Assembly (NCBI RefSeq): GCF_000177535.2
Contig: NC_015673.1
Coordinates: forward strand, 1,860,001 to 1,924,000
Direction of reading: 5' to 3'
From: Corynebacterium resistens DSM 45100
Lineage (GTDB): Bacteria; Actinomycetota; Actinomycetes; Mycobacteriales; Mycobacteriaceae
DNA: 64,000 bases
Shown here: positions 1-28,667 of the stretch, piece by piece
Numbering within the stretch: position 1 is the stretch's first letter
Layout of the letters: the number at the start of each line of letters is the position of its first letter
Made by a program: the position numbers and the translations under genes
Notes under the pieces: generated by a model
Told to the model about the DNA's origin: nothing
Seen by the model: the letters and a program-made list of their open reading frames with translations, nothing else
The model's database searches: none

Positions 1-2
1 AC

Positions 3-458
3 CACCCCATCTGGGACTACTTCGACTACCGCAAAGCCGCCATCGGCGTCCTCCAGGACTACGCAACCCAAGCTGTCATTCTCCAGCAAGGCGACGGGTA
101 CGCCAACGAGCTCAAAGCCTCACTGACCTCAATCGGCTCACCCCGATTCGACGGCCTGCCACGGGGCAACAACCCGCACGCCGGTGAAGCGAGAATCTGC
201 TCGATCCTCGACAACCTCGACGCGCTCAAAGCCCGCAACCAAAAAGCGCAGGCCTACATGGATTGGTTCAACCCGGCCTGGGAAAGCCTCAGCGACGATG
301 ACCGGCTGGTCCTCGAGGTCTTCTTCCTCGACGACCTCTCCGCCGAGGACGCCGCCGTCAAAGTCGCCGAACACTTCTACGTCGAACGCAAGACTGCCTT
401 CGCCAAGAAGCAGCGCGCCCTTGCCCGCTTCGCGCGTCTCTTGTTCGGCAGAGACTGA
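3..458 (+). CDS. Phage sigma-70-like late regulator, 5' truncated by window edge
   Basis: The frame is open from base 3 and ends in TGA at 456-458, giving about 151 visible residues with the start outside the window. The C-terminal 60 residues look like a sigma-70 region 4 fold: an acidic helix (SLSDDDRLVLEVFFLDD), then SAEDAAVKVAEHF and a basic recognition-like helix (VERKTAFAKKQRALARFAR). Sigma-like or ArpU-like proteins in this position, just before HNH and small-terminase genes, commonly switch on late genes in Gram-positive prophages. The role is inferred from fold and position; a structural or unrelated helix-turn-helix protein is not excluded. A strong hairpin follows. Confidence 0.6.
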   Translation, partial: HPIWDYFDYRKAAIGVLQDYATQAVILQQGDGYANELKASLTSIGSPRFDGLPRGNNPHAGEARICSILDNLDALKARNQKAQAYMDWFNPAWESLSDDDRLVLEVFFLDDLSAEDAAVKVAEHFYVERKTAFAKKQRALARFARLLFGRD

Positions 459-2753: not shown

Positions 2754-3329
2754 GTGGCCAAAGACGGCACCAACCGAGGCGGACGCAGAGTCCGTGCCGG
2801 GGCGAAACCCGAAGCGTTGAACGATAAACTCGCGGCAGGTCGCCCCGCCGCCCGCCTGGCCACACCGACCGAGCTCGATGTGTTCGATCTGGACGGCACC
2901 GATATCGGTGATGGGGCAGTGCTCGCTGGCGAGTCGATGCCGCCCCCGGATGAGTACCTTTCCGCCGAGCAACGCGACGGCAAACCACTGGGTGCGGACC
3001 TGGTGTACCGGGAGACGTGGAACTGGCTGGATGAACGCGGCTGCACTGAGTTCGTCTCCAAACGCTTGATTGAGCAGTACGCGCAGGCGTTCGCCCGCTA
3101 CGTCCAGTGCGAGCAGGCGATTTCCAAGTTCGGTCTGCTCGGCAAACACCCCACCACGGGCGCTGCGATCGCCAGCCCGTTTGTGGCCATGTCGCAGTCG
3201 TTCGGCAAGCAGGCCAACGTGTACTGGTACGAGATCTTCGACATCGTGCGCGCCACCTGCACCACCGACTACTCCGGCACCACACCAGGCGATGAGGTCA
3301 TGGAGCAGCTGCTGAAAGCCTCCTCCTAG
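2754..3329 (+). CDS. terS: Terminase small subunit, P27 family
   Basis: 191 residues, GTG start with AGGAGG at 2740-2745. The N-terminus is basic (GGRRVRAGAKPE), followed by the P27-type helical domain (LVYRETWNWLDERG, QYAQAFARYVQCEQ, SPFVAMSQSFGKQANVYWYE). It should recognise viral DNA and load the large terminase encoded at 8357. The IS right end sits directly upstream, so any promoter must be in the IS or further left. A hairpin terminator follows the stop. Confidence 0.85.
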   Translation: MAKDGTNRGGRRVRAGAKPEALNDKLAAGRPAARLATPTELDVFDLDGTDIGDGAVLAGESMPPPDEYLSAEQRDGKPLGADLVYRETWNWLDERGCTEFVSKRLIEQYAQAFARYVQCEQAISKFGLLGKHPTTGAAIASPFVAMSQSFGKQANVYWYEIFDIVRATCTTDYSGTTPGDEVMEQLLKASS

Positions 3330-4609: not shown

Positions 4610-5831
4610 GCTCAAGCCTGCCGACTACAACCCGCGTAAGGACCTCCAGCCCGGCGACGCGGATTACGAGAAACTCAAGCGTAGCCTCACCGAGTTCGGT
4701 TATGTCGAGCCGGTGATCTACAACCGCACCACCGGCCACGTCGTCGGCGGCCACCAGCGGCTGAAAGTGCTCGCCGACCTCGGCCACACTGAAGTTGACT
4801 GCGTGGTCGTCGAACTGGACGAGACCCGCGAGAAGGCCCTCAACGTCGCACTGAACAAGATCAGCGGCGACTGGGACGACAATAAGCTGGCCCTGCTCAT
4901 CGCCGACCTGGACGCGGCCGACTTTGATGCCGAGCTCACCGGCTTCGACGACGAGGAAATCGCCCAGATGATTGGCTCCCTCGACGATGACGAGGTCACC
5001 GACGATCGTTTCGATCTCACGGAAGCACTCGAGGCCGCCTCCTTCGTCCAGCGCGGGGACATCTGGACCGTCGGCAGGCACCGGCTCGTCTGCGGGGACG
5101 CCACCAACCCAGACGACGTACAGACGTTGATGGGTGGAAAGAGTGCGAACCTGGTGCTGACTGACCCTCCCTACAACGTCGCCTTCGAATCCTCCGATGG
5201 GCTCACGATCAGGAACGACGCGATGAAGGCCGACTCCTTCTACGAGTTCCTGCTCGCCGCGTTTACGAACATGGCGGGAGTTCTCGACAAGGGTGGGTCT
5301 GCGTATGTGTTCCACGCCGACACCGAAGGGCTGAACTTCCGCAAAGCGTTCATCGACGCCGGATTCAAACTCTCCGGCTGCTGCATCTGGGTGAAGAACT
5401 CACTTGTGCTCGGCAGGTCACCGTACCAGTGGCAGCACGAACCAGTCCTCTACGGGTGGAAGCAAGGTGCCAAGCACAAGTGGTTCGCTGACCGGAAACA
5501 GACCACGATCTGGAACTTCGCCAAGCCGCGTAAGAACTCCGACCACCCGACTTCTAAGCCGCTGGACTTGCTGGCCTATCCAATCCGCAACTCCACCCAG
5601 GCCAACGCGATCATCCTCGACACCTTCGCTGGCAGCGGTTCAACACTGATGGCAGCCGAAGAAACCGATCGCATCGCGTACTGCATGGAGTTGGACGAGA
5701 AGTACGCCTCGGTGATCCTGCGCCGGTATGCCGATGCGACCGGGGACGCAGTCGGGATCACCTGCCAGCGAGGCGACACCCAGTACACGTACCTGGATCT
5801 GGTCAAACAGGTCGACCGCGACCCCGAGTAA
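4581..5831 (+). CDS. ParB-like domain fused to N6/N4 DNA methyltransferase
   Basis: 416 residues, GTG start with GGAGGTGA upstream inside metK. Residues 1-90 are a ParB/sulfiredoxin-like N-terminal domain (ADYNPRK, GHVVGGHQRLKVL). Residues about 170-405 are an amino-methyltransferase with the catalytic DPPY (LVLTDPPYNVAF) before the SAM motif FAGSGST (LDTFAGSGSTLMAAEE), the beta-class order, and HPTSKPLDL between them. No restriction nuclease is next to it, so it is an orphan methylase, likely protecting phage DNA from host restriction or marking it for packaging. The recognition sequence cannot be read from the protein. Confidence 0.92.
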   Translation: MLIKQLPISELKPADYNPRKDLQPGDADYEKLKRSLTEFGYVEPVIYNRTTGHVVGGHQRLKVLADLGHTEVDCVVVELDETREKALNVALNKISGDWDDNKLALLIADLDAADFDAELTGFDDEEIAQMIGSLDDDEVTDDRFDLTEALEAASFVQRGDIWTVGRHRLVCGDATNPDDVQTLMGGKSANLVLTDPPYNVAFESSDGLTIRNDAMKADSFYEFLLAAFTNMAGVLDKGGSAYVFHADTEGLNFRKAFIDAGFKLSGCCIWVKNSLVLGRSPYQWQHEPVLYGWKQGAKHKWFADRKQTTIWNFAKPRKNSDHPTSKPLDLLAYPIRNSTQANAIILDTFAGSGSTLMAAEETDRIAYCMELDEKYASVILRRYADATGDAVGITCQRGDTQYTYLDLVKQVDRDPE

Positions 5832-5859
5832 AACCCCGCATATGCAGGGAAAACAGGCC

Positions 5860-5940
5860 GCGAAAATGTCTGGTTGATGAGGGCAAAAACGACTGGATAA
5901 GCGGAAAAACGTATGGCTGTATGTACATGACCGAAAGCAC
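5860..5940 (+). promoter_or_regulatory. Conserved phage leader repeat, copy A
   Basis: First of three copies of a leader of about 80 bp. Shared blocks: a purine-rich start, GGGCAAA, GACTGGATAAGCG (5891-5903) and TATGGCTGTATGTACAT (5912-5928), then GAAAGCAC. It precedes the gene starting at 5978, whose own AAAGGA lies just before ATG. Probably a phage promoter or protein-binding leader. Confidence 0.7.
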
Positions 5941-5977
5941 CCCCGCACCCGGGGGAACCGAGCGAAAAGGACTGGTC

Positions 5978-6163
5978 ATGAGTGAATTACACATCGAAAT
6001 CAGCGAGCTTATCGCAGCCGGAGTCAACGTCTACGACCCCGAGGAAACCCTGCGGATTGCCACGGCACGCGGCTACCAGCTGGTGGTGCGCGTGATCGAG
6101 CACGACCCGACGCGTTTCCTCAGCATAGTGGCCGCCTGGTTCGAGCAGGAGGTCGTGGCATGA
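5978..6163 (+). CDS. Small phage protein of unknown function
   Basis: 61 residues, acidic (ELHIEISELIAAGVNVYD, then RGYQLVVRVIEHDPTRF). No recognised domain or signal peptide. ATG at 5978 was chosen because AAAAGGA lies 8 bases upstream; in-frame ATGs at 5921 and 5927 are inside the conserved leader repeat and would translate it. It overlaps the next gene by 4 bases (ATGA), so the two are translationally coupled. First gene of the first leader-controlled unit. Confidence 0.65.
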   Translation: MSELHIEISELIAAGVNVYDPEETLRIATARGYQLVVRVIEHDPTRFLSIVAAWFEQEVVA

Positions 6164-6810
6164 GCATCCTCGCCTTCACCCCACACAAAACGGGCAGGAA
6201 AAAGCTCGCCCAGCTTCTCGCCGATCACCTTAGCGTCAAGGCCACCTATCTAGGCACGCCCTCGTTTGCCTACCAGATCGCAGACGCCACGCTGGATCGC
6301 AACTGGACCCTCTACCTGCCAGATAGCATCGACACGCAGGCCGTGCTCGAGGCCGCCCGCCAGGCAGGCTTTGCCACCACCGACCCGGGCGAGGTGGCGT
6401 TGACGGTCACGATGCCCACCACCGGGTGGAGTGAGCGCACACGCGCCAACCTCGAAGCGCTCCTGGCAGCCAAAGGGCCCCTGATCGCCAAAGCCCTGGG
6501 CATCCCGGCCACACCCGTCGAGTTCAACGATGACGAGACCGTCTCGTTCCCGTGGTGTGCGTCGATTACGCCGGAGACGGCACGCGAGGCGGTGATCCCG
6601 CTTATTACCCGGCTCTGCCAACGCGCCCAGGAGGCAACCCGAATCCGGGCCACACCGCCTGCACCGGGCAATGACAAGTACACGATGCGCTGCTTCCTGC
6701 TCTCCCTGGGCTTCATCGGCCCCGAACACAAGCAGGCACGCCGCATCCTTCTGGCAGGCCTGGAAGGCGACGCCGCCTGGCGCACCCCTGCAAGCAGGAA
6801 GGAGGATTGA
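6160..6810 (+). CDS. Conserved phage/ICE protein of unknown function
   Basis: 216 residues. The N-terminus MSILAFTPHKTGRKKLAQLL and the C-terminal segment KYTMRCFLLSLGFIGPEHKQ recall a hypothetical family I associate with clostridial prophages and conjugative elements; the function is unknown. No membrane segment or signal peptide. Start ATG overlaps the previous stop by 4 bases. The DUF4314-like gene follows after 2 bases, so the three genes behind leader copy A form one operon. Confidence 0.72.
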   Translation: MSILAFTPHKTGRKKLAQLLADHLSVKATYLGTPSFAYQIADATLDRNWTLYLPDSIDTQAVLEAARQAGFATTDPGEVALTVTMPTTGWSERTRANLEALLAAKGPLIAKALGIPATPVEFNDDETVSFPWCASITPETAREAVIPLITRLCQRAQEATRIRATPPAPGNDKYTMRCFLLSLGFIGPEHKQARRILLAGLEGDAAWRTPASRKED

Positions 6811-6812
6811 CC

Positions 6813-7010
6813 ATGACTCCTGGCCAGCGGGTGCGCCTGATCGCCACCAGCGACCCGTACACGAGCCTGCGCCCCGGTGCGCTTGGCACCGTGGCGTTCG
6901 TCGACGACCTCGGCACCGTCCACGTCGACTGGGACACAGGATCGAATCTGGGGCTGATCCCGGGCGAGGACTCCTGGGAAACCCTGCCCTCAGCAACGCC
7001 CGAAAAATAG
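6813..7010 (+). CDS. DUF4314-like small beta protein
   Basis: 65 residues. The sequence PGQRVRLIATSDPYTSLRPG, then GTVAFVDDLGTVHVDWDTGS and NLGLIPGEDSW follows the DUF4314 pattern, a small SH3-like beta barrel of unknown role common in phages and mobile elements. ATG 6813 is chosen over TTG 6807 because GGAAGGAGGA ends 7 bases before it. Last gene of the first small-gene operon; leader copy B begins directly after its stop. Confidence 0.75.
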   Translation: MTPGQRVRLIATSDPYTSLRPGALGTVAFVDDLGTVHVDWDTGSNLGLIPGEDSWETLPSATPEK

Positions 7011-7080
7011 CGGCTCATCAGGGCAAAAAATGACTGGATATGCGGCACAACGTATGGCTGTATGTACATACCGAAAGCAC
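7001..7080 (+). promoter_or_regulatory. Conserved phage leader repeat, copy B
   Basis: Second copy: GGGCAAAA at 7021, GACTGGATATGCG at 7032-7044, TATGGCTGTATGTACAT at 7053-7069, GAAAGCAC at 7073-7080. It begins within the last codons of the preceding gene and stands 25 bases before the ATG at 7105. Confidence 0.7.
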
Positions 7081-7104
7081 ACCACCTCAGGGAAGGACAC
7101 AGCC

Positions 7105-7440
7105 ATGAACACCCAGCCACAGATGAGCATCGAAGAGGACAACACCCAGCACCTGGTCGAGAGCGCGAACCGGCTCGGCTACACCATCGCCACCATCGAC
7201 ACCACAGACGACCTCGCGATCGAGATCCGCCCCGCAGCCCGCATGCCGTACACCCCGCCCTTGTACCGGGATTGGCAGACCGGCCAGTGGACGATCCAAA
7301 CCACCTCATACGGCTCCCTCGACCCGGAAGAGATCGAGAAGGTCACCGACGGCTACCGACGCGCCATCGCCATGGTCAGCGAACTGGCACCCCTGAACGC
7401 CCGCGACCTGGTGAACTACAGCATCACCCGCAACGCCTGA
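7105..7440 (+). CDS. Small phage protein of unknown function
   Basis: 111 residues. Seen: an acidic N-terminal stretch (MSIEEDNTQHLVESANRLG), a probable beta region with IATIDTTDDLAIEIRPAAR, and YRDWQTGQWTIQTTSYGS. No recognised family. ATG 7105 has GGGAAGGA 9 bases upstream; an in-frame ATG at 7030 lies in the leader repeat and is not credible. It is the only gene of the second leader-controlled unit. A stem-loop at 7466-7486 follows. Confidence 0.6.
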   Translation: MNTQPQMSIEEDNTQHLVESANRLGYTIATIDTTDDLAIEIRPAARMPYTPPLYRDWQTGQWTIQTTSYGSLDPEEIEKVTDGYRRAIAMVSELAPLNARDLVNYSITRNA

Positions 7441-7465
7441 CCTGCTGGCACCCGGATACCCTGCC

Positions 7466-7486
7466 ACGAGCGGGGTTTCCCCTCGT
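7466..7486 (+). terminator. Possible terminator before leader copy C
   Basis: ACGAGCGGGG and CCCCTCGT pair around a TTT loop with one bulged base. A weak T-rich stretch follows. It separates the second and third small-gene units. Confidence 0.4.
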
Positions 7487-7530
7487 TACAAGCCTTGTTT
7501 CTCCACGGTTTTCTGCGAGTGCTGTAGATC

Positions 7531-7612
7531 CCAAAAAATAGTGCCTGATCTGGGCAAATACGACTGGATAAGTGCCCGCACCTATGGCTGTATGTACATG
7601 ACAAAAGAACAC
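7531..7612 (+). promoter_or_regulatory. Conserved phage leader repeat, copy C
   Basis: Third copy: GGGCAAATA at 7552, GACTGGATAAGTG at 7562-7574, TATGGCTGTATGTACAT at 7583-7599. It also shares an ACACCACCTSAG tail and CAGCCATGAACACC start region with copy B, so B and C are closer to each other than to A. Confidence 0.7.
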
Positions 7613-7635
7613 CACCTGAGACAAGGACAACAGCC

Positions 7636-7923
7636 ATGAACACCGCCGAGAAGCTCACCACCGAAGCCCTGCAGATGCGCGTCGACTCCTACGGGGCGAT
7701 CCTCGCACACGGCGACTACACGCTGGCCACCTTCGCGACCTGGACCAAGAAAGACGGCTACGGCAACAGCGCCCAGGTTTACCGCCTGACCGAAGCCCCG
7801 ATCGATGGCTTCGGCCCCGACGCACGCGGCCGCAGCGAATGCGCCCTGGAGCTCATCGCCGAGGCCGACCACCTTTTCGAAGACGCCGGGCATGCCATCG
7901 CCTGGGCCCTGACCCAGATCTAA
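7636..7923 (+). CDS. Small phage protein of unknown function
   Basis: 95 residues; visible segments are YGAILAHGDYTLATFATW, AQVYRLTEAPIDGFG and a C-terminal helix ending in AIAWALTQI. No recognised domain. GACAAGGA precedes ATG by 8 bases. It is the first gene behind leader copy C and is followed 33 bases later by another small gene, likely in the same transcript. Confidence 0.62.
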   Translation: MNTAEKLTTEALQMRVDSYGAILAHGDYTLATFATWTKKDGYGNSAQVYRLTEAPIDGFGPDARGRSECALELIAEADHLFEDAGHAIAWALTQI

Positions 7924-7956
7924 CCCACACCCACACGGACAAGGAGGACACGGACG

Positions 7957-8247
7957 ATGGACGCCACCCGGAAGCTGATCACCAACCACCTGGAGATCCC
8001 CGCCGACGCCGCCCCGCACGGTGAGATCCAGACTGCCGCCGAGATCCCCTTCAGCGTCCTCGACGAGCTCGCTGAGGAGGTCGGGGCCGAGAAGATCCCC
8101 GTCCACACGCTCAGCCGCATCGGCTGGCACTACACCAAAGCCGACCAGATCATCGCCCTGGCCAGGCAGCGCGGCCTGTCCGATTGGCGCTACGGCGGCT
8201 TCGACACCGACCAGGTGGTCGCCAACTTTCGCGCCACCTACTGCTAA
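7957..8247 (+). CDS. Small phage protein of unknown function
   Basis: 96 residues, AAGGAGGA upstream of ATG. Visible segments: EIPFSVLDELAEEVGAEKIP, LSRIGWHYTKADQIIALAR and WRYGGFDTDQVVANF; mostly helical by eye, with no known motif. Second gene of the unit behind leader copy C, and last before the terminator upstream of the large terminase. Confidence 0.62.
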   Translation: MDATRKLITNHLEIPADAAPHGEIQTAAEIPFSVLDELAEEVGAEKIPVHTLSRIGWHYTKADQIIALARQRGLSDWRYGGFDTDQVVANFRATYC

Positions 8248-8303
8248 CCCCTCGCACCGTCCCGACCCCCAAGGATCAGGACTGGCCCCACACTTTCCGT
8301 TTC

Positions 8304-8327
8304 GCCCCACACGGTTGGGGCTTTTCT
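8304..8327 (+). terminator. Terminator before large terminase
   Basis: GCCCCA (8304-8309) pairs with TGGGGC (8316-8321) around a 6-base loop, followed by TTTTCTT. A standard intrinsic terminator shape. Confidence 0.7.
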
Positions 8328-8356
8328 TATGCCCCGAGGAAGGAGCTGCCGCCACG

Positions 8357-9955
8357 ATGACGAGCACGTATCAGCCGACCAGGTTCATGGCCGACGGCTC
8401 CACCTACAACCAACGCAAAGCCGACTTCGCTGTCGCATTCATTCAGGCGCTGCGCCACACCAAAGGCCGCTGGGCAGGCACACCCTTCACACTGCTGGGT
8501 TGGCAAGAACAGATCGTGCGCGACCTGTTCGGCACCATCAAACCCGACGGCTACCGCCAGTTCACCACCGCCTATGTGGAGATCCCCAAGAAGCAGGGCA
8601 AGTCCGAGCTGGCCGCCGCGATCGCGCTGCTGCTGACCTGCGGGGACGGGGAACAAGCCGCCGAGGTCTACGGCTGCGCGGCCGACCGGCAGCAAGCCAG
8701 CATCGTCTTCGAGGTCGCCGCCGACATGATCCGCCAATCACCGGCCCTATCGAAGCGGGTGAAAATCCTCAGCAGTCAGAAGCGCATCATCTACAAGCCG
8801 ACCAACAGCTTCTACCAAGTGCTCTCCGCTGAGGCGTACTCCAAGCACGGGTTCAACATCTCCGGTGTTGTCTTTGATGAGCTGCATACCCAGCCCAACC
8901 GCGCGCTGTTTGACGTGATGACCAAGGGCTCTGGTGATGCGCGCACCCAGCCGCTGTACTTCCTCATCACCACCGCAGGCACCGACACCCACAGCATCTG
9001 CTACGAGCAGCACCAAAAAGCGCGCGACATTCTGGCGGGCAAGAAACACGACCCCACCTTCTACCCGGTGATCTACGGCGCGGAGCTGGATGATGACTGG
9101 ACGGATGAAAAGGTCTGGCACAAGGCCAACCCCTCGCTTGGCGTCACGGTGCCGGTGGAGAAGGTGCGGGCGGCGTGCAACTCGGCTCGCCAGAACCCCG
9201 CCGAGGAGAACTCGTTTCGCCAGCTGCGGCTTAACCAGTGGGTCAAGCAGTCCGTGCGGTGGATGCCCATGCACATCTGGGACGCATGCGCAGACCCGGT
9301 AGACCTAGACGAGCTGGAGGGCAGACCTTGCTACGGCGGGCTGGACTTGGCCTCCACGACGGATATCACCGCGTTCGTGCTGGTATTCCCGCCCTACGGG
9401 GAGGACGAGAAGTACCGGATCGTCCCGTGGTTCTGGATTCCCGAGGACAACCTTTCGCTGCGGGTGGCGCGTGATCACGTGCCCTACGACCTGTGGCACA
9501 GCCAAGGTTTCTTGGAGACCACGGAGGGCAATGTTGTCCACTACGCCCACATCGAGAACCTCATCGAGCAGCTCGGCACACGCTTCGATATCCGCGAGAT
9601 CGCCTTCGACCGGTGGGGCGCAGTCCAAATGAGCCAAAACCTCGACGATGCCGGTTTCACCGTCGTGCCCTTCGGGCAGGGCTTTAAAGACATGAGCCCA
9701 CCGAGCAAGGAGCTGATGAAGCTCGCACTCGAAGGCCGCCTCGCCCACGGGGGCCACCCGGTGCTGGCCTGGATGGTCGACAACATCCATGTACGCACCG
9801 ACCCGGCAGGAAACATCAAACCCGACAAGCAAAAGTCCACCGAGAAGATCGACGGGGTTGTCGCCACCATCATGGCCCTTGACCGCGCGATCCGAGGCGG
9901 CAGTAGCGATACGGGCACATCCGTGTACGACTCGCGCGGGCTGCTCGTCTTCTAA
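8357..9955 (+). CDS. terL: Terminase large subunit
   Basis: 532 residues, the normal length. The ATPase half has a Walker A-like IPKKQGKSELAAAIALLL near residue 80 and a Walker B-like GVVFDELH near residue 175. The nuclease half has an acidic site in GLDLASTTDITAF and a late KSTEKIDGVVATIMALDR. It is the motor that pumps DNA into the prohead through the portal. ATG 8357 follows GAGGAAGGAG with 12 bases spacing. Start of the head-gene block. Confidence 0.93.
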   Translation: MTSTYQPTRFMADGSTYNQRKADFAVAFIQALRHTKGRWAGTPFTLLGWQEQIVRDLFGTIKPDGYRQFTTAYVEIPKKQGKSELAAAIALLLTCGDGEQAAEVYGCAADRQQASIVFEVAADMIRQSPALSKRVKILSSQKRIIYKPTNSFYQVLSAEAYSKHGFNISGVVFDELHTQPNRALFDVMTKGSGDARTQPLYFLITTAGTDTHSICYEQHQKARDILAGKKHDPTFYPVIYGAELDDDWTDEKVWHKANPSLGVTVPVEKVRAACNSARQNPAEENSFRQLRLNQWVKQSVRWMPMHIWDACADPVDLDELEGRPCYGGLDLASTTDITAFVLVFPPYGEDEKYRIVPWFWIPEDNLSLRVARDHVPYDLWHSQGFLETTEGNVVHYAHIENLIEQLGTRFDIREIAFDRWGAVQMSQNLDDAGFTVVPFGQGFKDMSPPSKELMKLALEGRLAHGGHPVLAWMVDNIHVRTDPAGNIKPDKQKSTEKIDGVVATIMALDRAIRGGSSDTGTSVYDSRGLLVF

Positions 9956-25412: not shown

Positions 25413-25624
25413 ACATGGCAGCCGAGCTGAAGGCTCATCACCAGCTCACGCAGGTCAAGCAGCTTCTCGAACGCGGCATCCTCACCCCACGCGAAGCCAT
25501 CACCGTCTGCCAGCGCCTCGACGCCCCAGATGCGCCGCTAGCCGCCCTACAAAGAGCCAGTTTCGTTGACTATCTCGAGGGTTTGAGTGATGTATGGATA
25601 CAACCTGAAACCCTGTCTGACTAG
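25409..25624 (+). CDS. Small SHOCT-like protein
   Basis: 71 residues, ATG overlapping the previous stop. The segment VKQLLERGILTPREAITVCQ resembles the SHOCT-type helical motif found in small proteins next to recombinases of mobile elements. No catalytic residues. Probably part of the recombinase operon, perhaps a directionality or accessory factor; that role is inferred from position only. TAG at 25622-25624 overlaps the next RBS (TAGGAGA). Confidence 0.6.
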   Translation: MNMAAELKAHHQLTQVKQLLERGILTPREAITVCQRLDAPDAPLAALQRASFVDYLEGLSDVWIQPETLSD

Positions 25625-25634
25625 GAGAAATACC

Positions 25635-27080
25635 TTGAAGAGAATGGAGCAAATCACCCCGCCACCGATCAGCACTTCTCCGCTTGTGAAAGTGGCAGCG
25701 TATGCCCGCATCAGCATGGAAACCGAGCGCACACCGCTGAGTTTGTCCACCCAAGTTTCCTACTACCAGCAACTCATTCACGACACTCCTGGCTGGACGT
25801 TCGCCGGAGTGTTCGCCGATTCTGGAATCTCTGGAACCACCACGCATCGACCCCAGTTCCAAGAAATGCTGGCCCTTGCCCGGGAAGGGGCAATCGACCT
25901 GATTCTCACCAAGTCGATCTCGCGCTTCGCTCGCAGCACCGTCGACCTGCTCGAAACCGTTCGCGAGCTCAAAGACCTCGAGGTGGAGGTGCGATTCGAA
26001 AAAGAGAACATCTCCTCAACCAGCGCTGACGGAGAACTCATGCTCACCCTGCTGGCGTCTTTCGCGCAGGCAGAATCAGAGCAAATCAGCCAAAACGTGA
26101 AGTGGCGCATTTGGAAAGGCTTCGAAGAAGGCAAAGCGAACGGCTTCCACTTGTACGGGTACACCGACTCCGCTGACGGCACCGACGTGCAGATCATCGA
26201 AGAAGAAGCAGCCGTGGTGCGCTGGATCTTCGACCAGTACATGAAGAAGACCTCGTGCGAAAAGATGGCTGCACAACTCATTGCCGAGGGCAGGGTTCCG
26301 CACCTGGCTGACAACAAGTTGCCCGGCGAATGGGTCCGTCACATCCTGAAGAACCCGCACTACACCGGCGACCTCTTGTTAGGGCGATGGTCCACTCCGG
26401 AGGGTAAGCCTGGACGAGCGGTGCGCAACACCGGCCAGTTGCCACAATACCTGGTGGAAAACGCGATCCCCGCGATCATCGACCGCGACACTTTCACCGC
26501 TGTACAAACCGAGATCGCTCGACGTCGTGAGCTCGGGGCCCGGGCGAACTGGTCCATCGAAACTGTGGCGTTGACGTCGAAGATCAAATGCGTTTCCTGC
26601 GACTGCTCGTTTGTGCGCAACGTACGCAATCCGAAAACCCAAAACTCGATCTCCACCGAGCACTGGATCTGCACCAAACGCAAGAAAGGCCGCAAAACCG
26701 GATGCGGCACCTGCGAAATCTCTGACACGGCACTCAAAGGCTTCATCGCTCAAGTCCTGGGTATCGATGCCTTCGACGAGGATGTGTTCAACGAGCGTAT
26801 CGACCACATCGATGTGCAGGGAAAAGACCAATACACGTTTCAGTACACCGATGGCACCAGCAGCTCGCACACGTGGCGACCAAACCTGAAGAAGAGCTCG
26901 TGGACCCCAGCAAGAAAAGCCGCCTGGGGCGAACTCGTGCGTGCCCGCTGGGCCGAAGCCAAAAGGCTCCGGTTGGACAACCCACGGCAAGCACCAACAC
27001 CACCAGAAGCATTGGCGAAGTACCGGGCCGTGGCCAAGGCAGAAGCTGAGCGCCTGCGCGCCGAGCGAGGCGAACGCTAA
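25635..27080 (+). CDS. Large serine recombinase 1
   Basis: 481 residues from TTG 25635, chosen because TAGGAGA lies 6 bases upstream; ATG 25644 and 25587 are alternatives. The resolvase domain has the nucleophile Ser27 in AAYARIS, then DSGISGTT, LILTKSISRFARSTVDLLE and the long helix. The recombinase domain follows (HLYGYTDSADGT, WVRHILKNPHYTGDLL). A zinc ribbon (KCVSCDCSF ... CGTC) is present. The tail after residue 400 is basic and may include a short coiled coil. Integration or excision enzyme, in tandem with the next gene. Confidence 0.92.
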   Translation: MKRMEQITPPPISTSPLVKVAAYARISMETERTPLSLSTQVSYYQQLIHDTPGWTFAGVFADSGISGTTTHRPQFQEMLALAREGAIDLILTKSISRFARSTVDLLETVRELKDLEVEVRFEKENISSTSADGELMLTLLASFAQAESEQISQNVKWRIWKGFEEGKANGFHLYGYTDSADGTDVQIIEEEAAVVRWIFDQYMKKTSCEKMAAQLIAEGRVPHLADNKLPGEWVRHILKNPHYTGDLLLGRWSTPEGKPGRAVRNTGQLPQYLVENAIPAIIDRDTFTAVQTEIARRRELGARANWSIETVALTSKIKCVSCDCSFVRNVRNPKTQNSISTEHWICTKRKKGRKTGCGTCEISDTALKGFIAQVLGIDAFDEDVFNERIDHIDVQGKDQYTFQYTDGTSSSHTWRPNLKKSSWTPARKAAWGELVRARWAEAKRLRLDNPRQAPTPPEALAKYRAVAKAEAERLRAERGER

Positions 27081-28667
27081 ATGGCCCGCACCGTCACAGC
27101 AATCCCCGCCACCCGAGCGCTCCACACTGGTGCTCCACTTGGACAAACAACCCTGCGCAGGGTCGCCGGGTATGCCCGCGTGTCCACCGACCACGACGAT
27201 CAGGTGACGTCCTACGAAGCCCAAGTCGACTACTACACCCGCTATATCAGCGACCACGCGGGCTGGCAGTTCGTGAAGGTCTATACCGATGAAGGCATCA
27301 CCGGCACCTCAACCAAACACCGCGCTGGATTCCAGCAGATGGTCACCGACGCGCTCGACGGCAAGATCGACCTGATCATCACCAAGAGCGTCTCCCGGTT
27401 CGCCCGCAACACCGTCGACTCGCTCACCACCGTTCGAGCCCTCAAAGACAAAGGCGTGGAGGTCTTCTTCGAGAAAGAAGGCATCTGGACCTTCGACGCC
27501 AAAGGCGAGCTCCTCATTACCATCATGAGTTCCCTCGCCCAAGAAGAAGCCCGCTCCATCTCAGAAAACGTCACCTGGGGACACCGCAAACGCTTCGCCG
27601 ACGGCAAAGTCACCGTCCCATACTCTCGCTTCCTCGGATACGACAAAGGCGAAGACGGCAACCTCGTCATCAACCCCGAGCAAGCCAAAACCGTGCGCCG
27701 GATCTACAACATGTACTTAGGCGGCATGTCCATCGGCACGATCGCCCGCACCCTCACCGACGAACCAGAGACCTTCACCGCCGCAGGCAACAAGATCTGG
27801 TATTACCAATCCATACGAGCAATTCTCACCAACGAGAAATACAAGGGTGACGCCCTCCTGCAGAAGTCGTACATCGCTGACTACCTGACGAAACGTCAAG
27901 TCATCAACCAAGGCGAAGTACCCCAGTACTACGTCACCGCCAACCATGAGGCGATCATCAGTCCCGCAGTGTGGGACTTCGTCCAAGCCGAAATCGCTAA
28001 AGGCGCTAGGGATCAGCGAACCCAGCACCGCACTCGGCCCTTCTCATCGACCTTCGAGTGCGGCCAGTGTGGGCACTTCTTCGGCTCGAAAACCTGGCAT
28101 GCGGGCAGTAAGTACGAAAAGGTCATCTGGCGGTGCGGCCACAAATACGCAGGCCAGGAAAAATGCGCCACCGGGCACATCAGCGATCAACGACTCAAGG
28201 ACATGTTCCTTAAGGCCATTCGCCTTCGATTCGCCTCACCGACCGACACAGGTGTCAACCAAGCCGTTCTCGACGCCCTCGACACGAGTGACCTGGAAGT
28301 TGAGGCCGCCGGGCTTCTCGCACAGATCAATGAGGTGGCCAAAAAGCTCCAATCGATAATCGCCCGCAACGCACGAGTCGCTCAAGACCAGCAAGCCTAC
28401 GAGAAGGCGTTCAACGCTAGCCACGAACAGCACCAGACGCTGTTAGCTGAACACGCTGCCGTGGTCGCCGAGATCCAGAACAAAAACAACCGACTGGCCG
28501 CCTACCACTACTACAGGCAGGAGACCGCCAACCTTGATCTTGAACAGTTGGCCTTCAGCCCATACCTCTGCGTAGCTTTGCTCGATAAAGGCGTCGTCGA
28601 CGTCGACGGCAACGTCACCTTTCAATTCCGCGACGGCAGCACCCAAGTAGTCGCCATCAAGCAGTAA
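27081..28667 (+). CDS. Large serine recombinase 2
   Basis: 528 residues, ATG directly after the stop of recombinase 1 with no gap. Nucleophile Ser35 in AGYARVSTDHDDQ; DEGITGTST, LIITKSVSRFARNTVDSL and SSLAQEEARSISENVTWGHR follow. It has the recombinase domain, a zinc ribbon (FECGQCGHFF ... RCGHKY) and a C-terminal coiled coil (LLAQINEVAKKLQSIIARNA), the usual DNA-synapsis control element. It differs clearly from recombinase 1, so the pair is not a recent duplication. Either each acts alone, or both are needed. Confidence 0.93.
   Translation: MARTVTAIPATRALHTGAPLGQTTLRRVAGYARVSTDHDDQVTSYEAQVDYYTRYISDHAGWQFVKVYTDEGITGTSTKHRAGFQQMVTDALDGKIDLIITKSVSRFARNTVDSLTTVRALKDKGVEVFFEKEGIWTFDAKGELLITIMSSLAQEEARSISENVTWGHRKRFADGKVTVPYSRFLGYDKGEDGNLVINPEQAKTVRRIYNMYLGGMSIGTIARTLTDEPETFTAAGNKIWYYQSIRAILTNEKYKGDALLQKSYIADYLTKRQVINQGEVPQYYVTANHEAIISPAVWDFVQAEIAKGARDQRTQHRTRPFSSTFECGQCGHFFGSKTWHAGSKYEKVIWRCGHKYAGQEKCATGHISDQRLKDMFLKAIRLRFASPTDTGVNQAVLDALDTSDLEVEAAGLLAQINEVAKKLQSIIARNARVAQDQQAYEKAFNASHEQHQTLLAEHAAVVAEIQNKNNRLAAYHYYRQETANLDLEQLAFSPYLCVALLDKGVVDVDGNVTFQFRDGSTQVVAIKQ

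Follow-up and report, generated by a model that had tools for sequence, protein, structure and literature searches.

Activator-dependent late promoters of the ArpU, RinA or Alt type drive the structural operon of Gram-positive temperate phages. Morons are autonomously transcribed accessory genes that are inserted among phage modules and carry a promoter of their own. The nearest known pattern to the repeats described here is that of the SAS and ESAS sequences of cluster K mycobacteriophages: in the parts of the source covered, the SAS is a 13-bp sequence (GGGATAGGAGCCC) immediately upstream of gene starts, the ESAS adds 17-bp inverted repeats to it, and the function of both is given as not known (PMC3203893).

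We analyzed a stretch of 64,000 nucleotides from the Corynebacterium resistens DSM 45100 chromosome (the window; positions below are counted from its first base), which carries a prophage. The core genes of Ca. Heliusviridae are listed, in the part of the source covered, as DUF2800, DUF2815, DNA polymerase I, VRR-NUC, SNF2 helicase, TerL, portal, Clp protease and major capsid (PMC9226167). The prophage has all nine genes of that list (9/9), with matches to PF10926, PF10991, DNA_pol_A, VRR_NUC, SNF2, portal, CLP_protease, Phage_capsid and TerL, that for VRR_NUC being marginal at 24.0 bits against a cut-off of 23.8. For this count we take PF10991 to be equivalent to DUF2815. The words 'promoter' and 'sigma factor' occur 0 times in the main text of PMC9226167, and the covered text of PMC11318856, which lists amidoligase genes in C. 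clostridioforme prophages, does not mention such an element. A literature search by letters and by themes, mostly within work available without subscription, found no description of the element.

Three copies of a two-box element before small-gene units

A sequence-only reading of the locus had claimed a leader repeat in three copies, each followed by a gene with its own ribosome-binding site (RBS), and both statements were borne out. The pattern GACTGGATA-N12-TATGGCTGTATGTACAT occurs three times in the window without mismatch, at 5891-5928 (E1), 7032-7069 (E2) and 7562-7599 (E3), with identical box order and spacing. No fourth site was found in the 64 kb when up to three mismatches were allowed, and 100 dinucleotide shuffles of the window gave 0 matches. 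The cores end at 5928, 7069 and 7599 and are followed by gene starts at 5978, 7105 and 7636; all three genes have an RBS of their own. The block is flanked by a ParB/N6-N4 methylase gene on one side and TerL on the other, and its features are as follows.

5893..5899, + strand: E1 left (-35-like) box, CTGGATA
5912..5937, + strand: E1 right block, TATGGCTGTATGTACAT + GACCGAAAG, -10/start-like region
5978..6163, + strand: unit 1, first gene after E1, 61 aa, no Pfam match
6160..6810, + strand: unit 1, phrog_2443 (amidoligase-type) gene, E 3e-39
6813..7010, + strand: unit 1, DUF4314 gene (PF14192, E 8e-22)
7034..7040, + strand: E2 left box, CTGGATA
7053..7078, + strand: E2 right block, TATGGCTGTATGTACAT + ACCGAAAGC
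7105..7440, + strand: unit 2, 111-aa gene, no Pfam or PHROG match
7564..7570, + strand: E3 left box, CTGGATA
7583..7608, + strand: E3 right block, TATGGCTGTATGTACAT + GACAAAAGA
7636..7923, + strand: unit 3, Nmad4 (nucleotide-modification-associated domain 4) gene, PF18756, E 3e-32
7957..8247, + strand: unit 3, 96-aa gene
8304..8321, + strand: terminator-like stem-loop closing the array, before TerL
8357-9955: TerL

Relatives of the 61-aa gene of unit 1 also stand behind the element in other phages. Stem-loops had been proposed to separate the units, and this held in part: there is a GC-rich hairpin near 7468-7488, but it has no T-run, and the sole terminator-like site on the + strand within 5700-8400 is that at 8304-8321, directly before TerL. 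On both strands together the same interval holds three terminator-like sites against a shuffle mean of 2.4, a number that by itself is not above chance.

Conservation runs on past the right block into GACCAAACAA, which would be transcribed, as might be expected if the copies were a 5' leader RNA element (an unstructured binding site, or an antitermination or translation signal) served by an unseen promoter farther upstream. We consider this improbable. RNAalifold predicted 0 pairs in 56 copies, a search of 5700-8400 against Rfam returned four matches with E values up to 5, all below the gathering cut-offs, the left box is like -35 hexamers, and the spacing is base-exact. With no consensus structure and no Rfam match above cut-off, an RNA element was rejected as improbable. 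A leader peptide, MAVCT, which could be read from the right block as ATG GCT GTA TGT ACA TGA, was also rejected: its GCT codon shows no third-base change among the variants, the stop is lost in copies ending in ATACC, and the AGAGCG variant has no ATG.

Variants of the element in related phages

The sequence-only reading had called for scans of this genome and of related phages, and both yielded further copies. The genome scan found two more exact cores, at C1:1076948 and C1:1078088, in a second prophage that belongs to the same family and lies on the same chromosome (G000:C1:1076948-1082505; L106 and L107). It encodes a regulator of its own and has two elements, of which one is a hybrid of E2 and E3. 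In related phages, additional copies precede small-gene units in Actinomycetota and Bacillota phages and on one Mycoplasmatota plasmid.

With the 17-base core alone, 53 stretches were retrieved from viral contigs, whose hosts are not stated, and a further 45 from genome contigs. Among the 84 distinct core matches with a full flank, 71 have TGGATA in the identical register, mostly in actinobacterial prophages; the remaining 13 lack the left box, are unconserved on both flanks and look like chance matches. Among named genomes, the full element occurs mostly in Actinomycetaceae and their relatives, in Corynebacterium, in Gulosibacter and in others. A profile built from exact cores supplied the set of variants and added diverged copies, including CTTGCTAT or CTGGATA followed by AGAGCGTGTATGTACATGACC. 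From its 210 matches ten were dropped (three below 16 bits and seven of an AGAGCG type missed by the pattern), and the 200 retained represent 135 distinct copies, 118 with an RBS and open reading frame (ORF) behind them and 17 without. Chance sites account for four of the 118 and seven of the 17; after their removal 114 of 124 profile-found copies have an RBS and ORF. A start codon with RBS lies 24-50 bases past the core in 113 of the 118 copies, and without the four chance sites the proteins behind these copies group into seven clusters, including Nmad4, DUF6900 and DUF7698. AT content peaks in the copies both at the right block and upstream of the element. When E1 was compared by blastn with a phage collection, only matches over 13-20% of the query, with E values of 2 or worse, were obtained.

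A sequence-only model of the element gave two to six matches per virus record (n=16) and five in the element's own genome. Apart from two weak outliers, the matches form one cluster per phage or prophage (two in one 111-kb record). Eight of the ten host genomes of retrieved loci had matches, in one or two clusters each, and the other two were traced to chance core matches. Three contigs of Tissierella sp. Marseille-P2918 (L060, L082, L086) carry copies that read like those of Varibaculum-type phages; to judge by their sequence they may be assembly contamination, and they were left out of the Bacillota evidence.

Following relatives of the amidoligase-type and Nmad4 genes, we reached phages with the GenBank lineage Ca. 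Heliusvirales and phages of Streptococcus, Terrisporobacter and Gardnerella that share the gene order. The intergenic gaps of these phages contain CTTGCTAT (or CTTGATAT or CTGGATAT) plus AGAG, followed by an AT-rich ATATGT block. The diverged form, CTTGCTAT-N10-TAGAGTGATATATGTA, occurs in Bacillota phages and in many viral contigs of unstated host. It is present in at least 200 distinct copies, and its spacer is exactly 10 in all of them although 5-16 was permitted. An RBS and ORF follow 200 of the 200 distinct Bacillota-type copies among the matches listed, at a median of 30 bases downstream, compared with 986 of 4000 random positions (25%) of the same loci under the same rule. When only the right half was used for scanning, TTG stood at the exact place in all 51 non-redundant copies among the matches listed. 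The proteins behind Bacillota-type copies fall into at least 15 clusters, which include serine recombinases, and 50 of the 118 proteins behind actinobacterial-type copies have relatives behind the Bacillota-type element.

Compared at the sequence level, the actinobacterial and Bacillota types are joined by bridging forms, CTGGATA...TTTAGAGCGTGTATAG in L400, at the G002 recombinase copy, and CTTGCTAT...TAGAGYGTGTATGTACATGACC in L030 and in Scrofimicrobium (L081). A strict pattern found copies in six of 295 genomes from the order of a Lachnospiraceae genome, and the reversed pattern found 0 in the same 295 genomes among the matches listed. Three plasmid matches were obtained; a good copy stands after a methylase gene in CP017949 (Mycoplasmatota), and the Staphylococcus and Ilyobacter plasmid matches look like chance.

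Some copies are composite. In the downstream copy of the second prophage (L001) the left flank of E2 is joined to the body of E3, and a Gulosibacter copy (L067) is likewise an E2/E3 hybrid, with a different break point inside the element. A third case is found in genome G228, where one copy lies 1.45 Mb from the genome's element cluster; this prophage remnant (L402, G228:C1:282500-288000) has a single hybrid element, similar to those of L001 and L067, before an Nmad4 gene, the 96-aa gene and TerL, and its methylase gene is broken near transposase-like ORFs. From these hybrids, units appear to have been lost by exchange between elements.

Such hybrids, and the copy that adjoins recombinase genes (see below), could also suggest a site for site-specific recombination or cassette joining that shuffles gene units, as integron attC sites do. 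Integrons pair each gene with an inverted-repeat recombination site, the attC, and have a dedicated integrase. The element stands ahead of each gene, and the 56 copies show no conserved pairing; homologous exchange would also give the differing break points of L001 and L067. Moreover, the recombinase copy leads its recombinase just as other copies lead other genes, and all 200 Bacillota-type copies among the matches listed lead an ORF in the same orientation. A role in cassette joining is therefore very improbable.

Recombinase operons and candidate regulators

A matrix trained on Bacillota-type copies only was run over both strands of the window. Its first-ranking site (25557, with the box starting at 25565) lies before a serine recombinase operon; E2 ranked second (7025) and E3 fourth (7555).

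25565..25602, + strand: weak, diverged fourth copy, GTTGACTATCTCGAGGGTTTGAGTGATGTATGGATAC, found with the Bacillota-type matrix, before the serine recombinase operon
25635..27080, + strand: serine recombinase (Resolvase + Recombinase domains)
27081-28667: second, similar serine recombinase

The fourth copy scores -2.7, far under the training median of 65, and went undetected in the profile searches. When the stretch upstream of the recombinase was shuffled 2000 times by mononucleotide, this score was never reached. The copy is credible because in other phages clearer copies precede recombinases in the corresponding position; likewise, the two weak outlying matches of the sequence-only model, G002:108769 and G010:4422, both lie directly before serine recombinase genes. 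The third-ranking site of the matrix (7485), at 7485-7530, stands directly upstream of E3 and, by its sequence, is perhaps a decayed extra copy.

The element is conserved, keeps a fixed geometry and stands before genes, recombinase genes among them. Because copies lie before both accessory units and recombinases, the set looks like a small regulon that includes integration and excision. The earlier view, which tied the element to accessory genes, was too local, as the element also precedes serine recombinase operons and belongs to a cross-phylum family. A late promoter for the whole phage was rejected, since in four annotated records, three of them partial, the copies with E below 0.01 sit either within the methylase-TerL block or ahead of a recombinase.

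A candidate trans-acting factor is encoded at the left edge of the window.

1..458, + strand: 154-aa sigma-region-4/ArpU-like protein, candidate trans factor; start codon 7 bases left of the window's first base
602-991: HNH endonuclease gene
2754-3326: TerS

The gene stands before HNH/TerS, the position of ArpU/DUF1492-type regulators. Between the HNH endonuclease gene and TerS there is also a transposase in two overlapping frames (1817-2726), presumably of the IS5-like family, and a reverse-strand gene (1211-1783) inserted together with it. The C-terminal piece of the regulator matches phrog_8834 (E 3e-16), with weaker matches to phrog_36 and phrog_248 and Pfam matches below cut-off; the regulator of the second prophage also matches phrog_8834 and, more weakly, phrog_36 and phrog_248. 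Pfam DUF1492 was above cut-off only in Javan630. The structure model predicted for the regulator consists of helices only, and its C-terminal half is modeled with confidence (mean pLDDT 82.8; 8 rows).

By profile, the regulator was found in 16 of 16 element-bearing records, and regulator and element occur in the same six of 248 genomes and the same one of 201, two of the six (G218 and G221) being already known as element carriers. As a control, DUF2800 was over the cut-off in nine of the 248 genomes and had E below 1e-100 in five of the same six; because it follows the same genomes, the co-occurrence is mostly a matter of descent. Against a link with this regulator, none was found beside the element of the G228 prophage remnant, and the regulator of the Oscillospiraceae and actinobacterial phages differs in type from that of the Streptococcus, Gardnerella and Terrisporobacter phages, whereas the element is one family. 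A tie between box type and regulator type was rejected, as NatCom_9287 has CTGGATA together with a Javan-type regulator. A second candidate is the sigma-like gene that opens the prophage's replication operon (L104, 8470-9093). Its Sigma70 region-4 match is below cut-off; in Gardnerella and Terrisporobacter phages the related genes carry sigma-factor annotations, and an early sigma-like gene is found in 15 of 16 records, mostly by weak matches.

A proposed phage promoter family and its relation to known systems

We propose, with a probability of roughly 70%, that the copies constitute one phage-specific promoter family for accessory units and recombinases, used by the host RNA polymerase together with a phage sigma-region-4/ArpU-like activator. 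From the sequence, the copies had been suggested to be promoters specific to the phage or a single regulator's operators; this remains the best-supported class, within which promoter activity, the start site, and the identity and sign of the regulator are what we infer. The left box (CTGGATA in E1-E3, CTTGCTAT in Bacillota phages, TTGACTAT before the window's recombinase) would act as a -35 element, and the AT-rich right block (TGTATGTACAT in the window copies, TGATATATGTA in Bacillota phages) as the -10/start region, so that each small-gene unit would receive its own short-leader transcript. The same promoter type before serine recombinase operons would place accessory units and integration/excision in one regulon. 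The probable reader is the host RNA polymerase with a phage protein that has a sigma-70-region-4-like, ArpU-like DNA-binding domain, and the sigma-like gene heading the replication operon may be a second helper.

A promoter fits because the two boxes keep a constant distance, the right block is AT-rich, A/T peaks lie upstream and a short leader separates the element from the gene start; the genes downstream belong to unrelated families. A phage factor is likely because the strict spacer and the conservation of AGAG and TATGG exceed what a host sigma factor needs. Against a promoter, a canonical sigma-70 pair (TTGACA-16/18-TATAAT-like, with -10 A2 and T6) has 0 sites in 5700-8400, the top -10-like hexamers either match poorly or are 18-21 bases away from the left box, and the conservation of the right block beyond the likely start (CATACCAAAA) exceeds the needs of a minimal promoter.

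The copies might instead be ordinary host-sigma promoters overlapped by the operator of a single phage repressor, the conserved block being mainly the repressor site and the units being released jointly on induction. A palindromic ATGTACAT would suit such a site, and in E2 GTATGTACATAC forms a palindrome of 12 bases. TTGACT in the recombinase copy, which is close to a host -35, would suit this reading too. Upstream of many copies, at roughly -75 to -58 relative to the core, there is also an imperfect dyad, AGNGAT-N4-ATCNCT, with halves more suggestive of a protein operator than of a stem in RNA. But the palindrome is not kept, as TGTATATACAT, TGTACATATAC and TGTATGTGTCA occur, the asymmetric AGAGTG or TATGGC part is equally conserved, and the dyad is missing from copies such as E1 and E2. 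A repressor operator is therefore unlikely.

An extension of the promoter family, which we put forward only tentatively, is a dedicated cross-phylum promoter class in which a region-4-only sigma-like adaptor of Heliusvirales would give the polymerases of Actinomycetota, Bacillota and Mycoplasmatota a new -35 specificity for an integration and accessory regulon. If so, one promoter family would work across phyla, its regulon would join integration with accessory genes for counter-defence or DNA modification that can be exchanged, and a gene newly inserted after the element would be marked as a member. Base-exact spacing of a short non-coding signal across phages of high-GC and low-GC hosts is unusual. 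The element also offers a sequence handle for small accessory genes, possibly for counter-defence, in a widespread group of gut phages, and it predicts that these genes are co-expressed with the integration machinery, with one small regulator named as a candidate.

Like the SAS and ESAS of cluster K phages, as described in the covered parts of PMC3203893, the element is a repeated conserved sequence just before unrelated small phage genes, with many copies per genome. Unlike them, it is about 44 bp long, lies mostly 24-50 bases upstream with two boxes at a fixed distance, needs no inverted repeat, and is common to several phyla and to recombinase operons; on reading the copies, GGGATAGGAGCCC was not seen just before the start codon. 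With the ArpU, RinA and Alt systems it shares a small sigma-region-4-like phage regulator encoded just before the HNH/terminase genes, but in four annotated phage records significant copies are found only in the methylase-TerL block or before recombinases. The units resemble morons in being small genes with their own putative promoter among phage modules, and they differ from morons in carrying one common promoter family, in arrays, with integration genes included.
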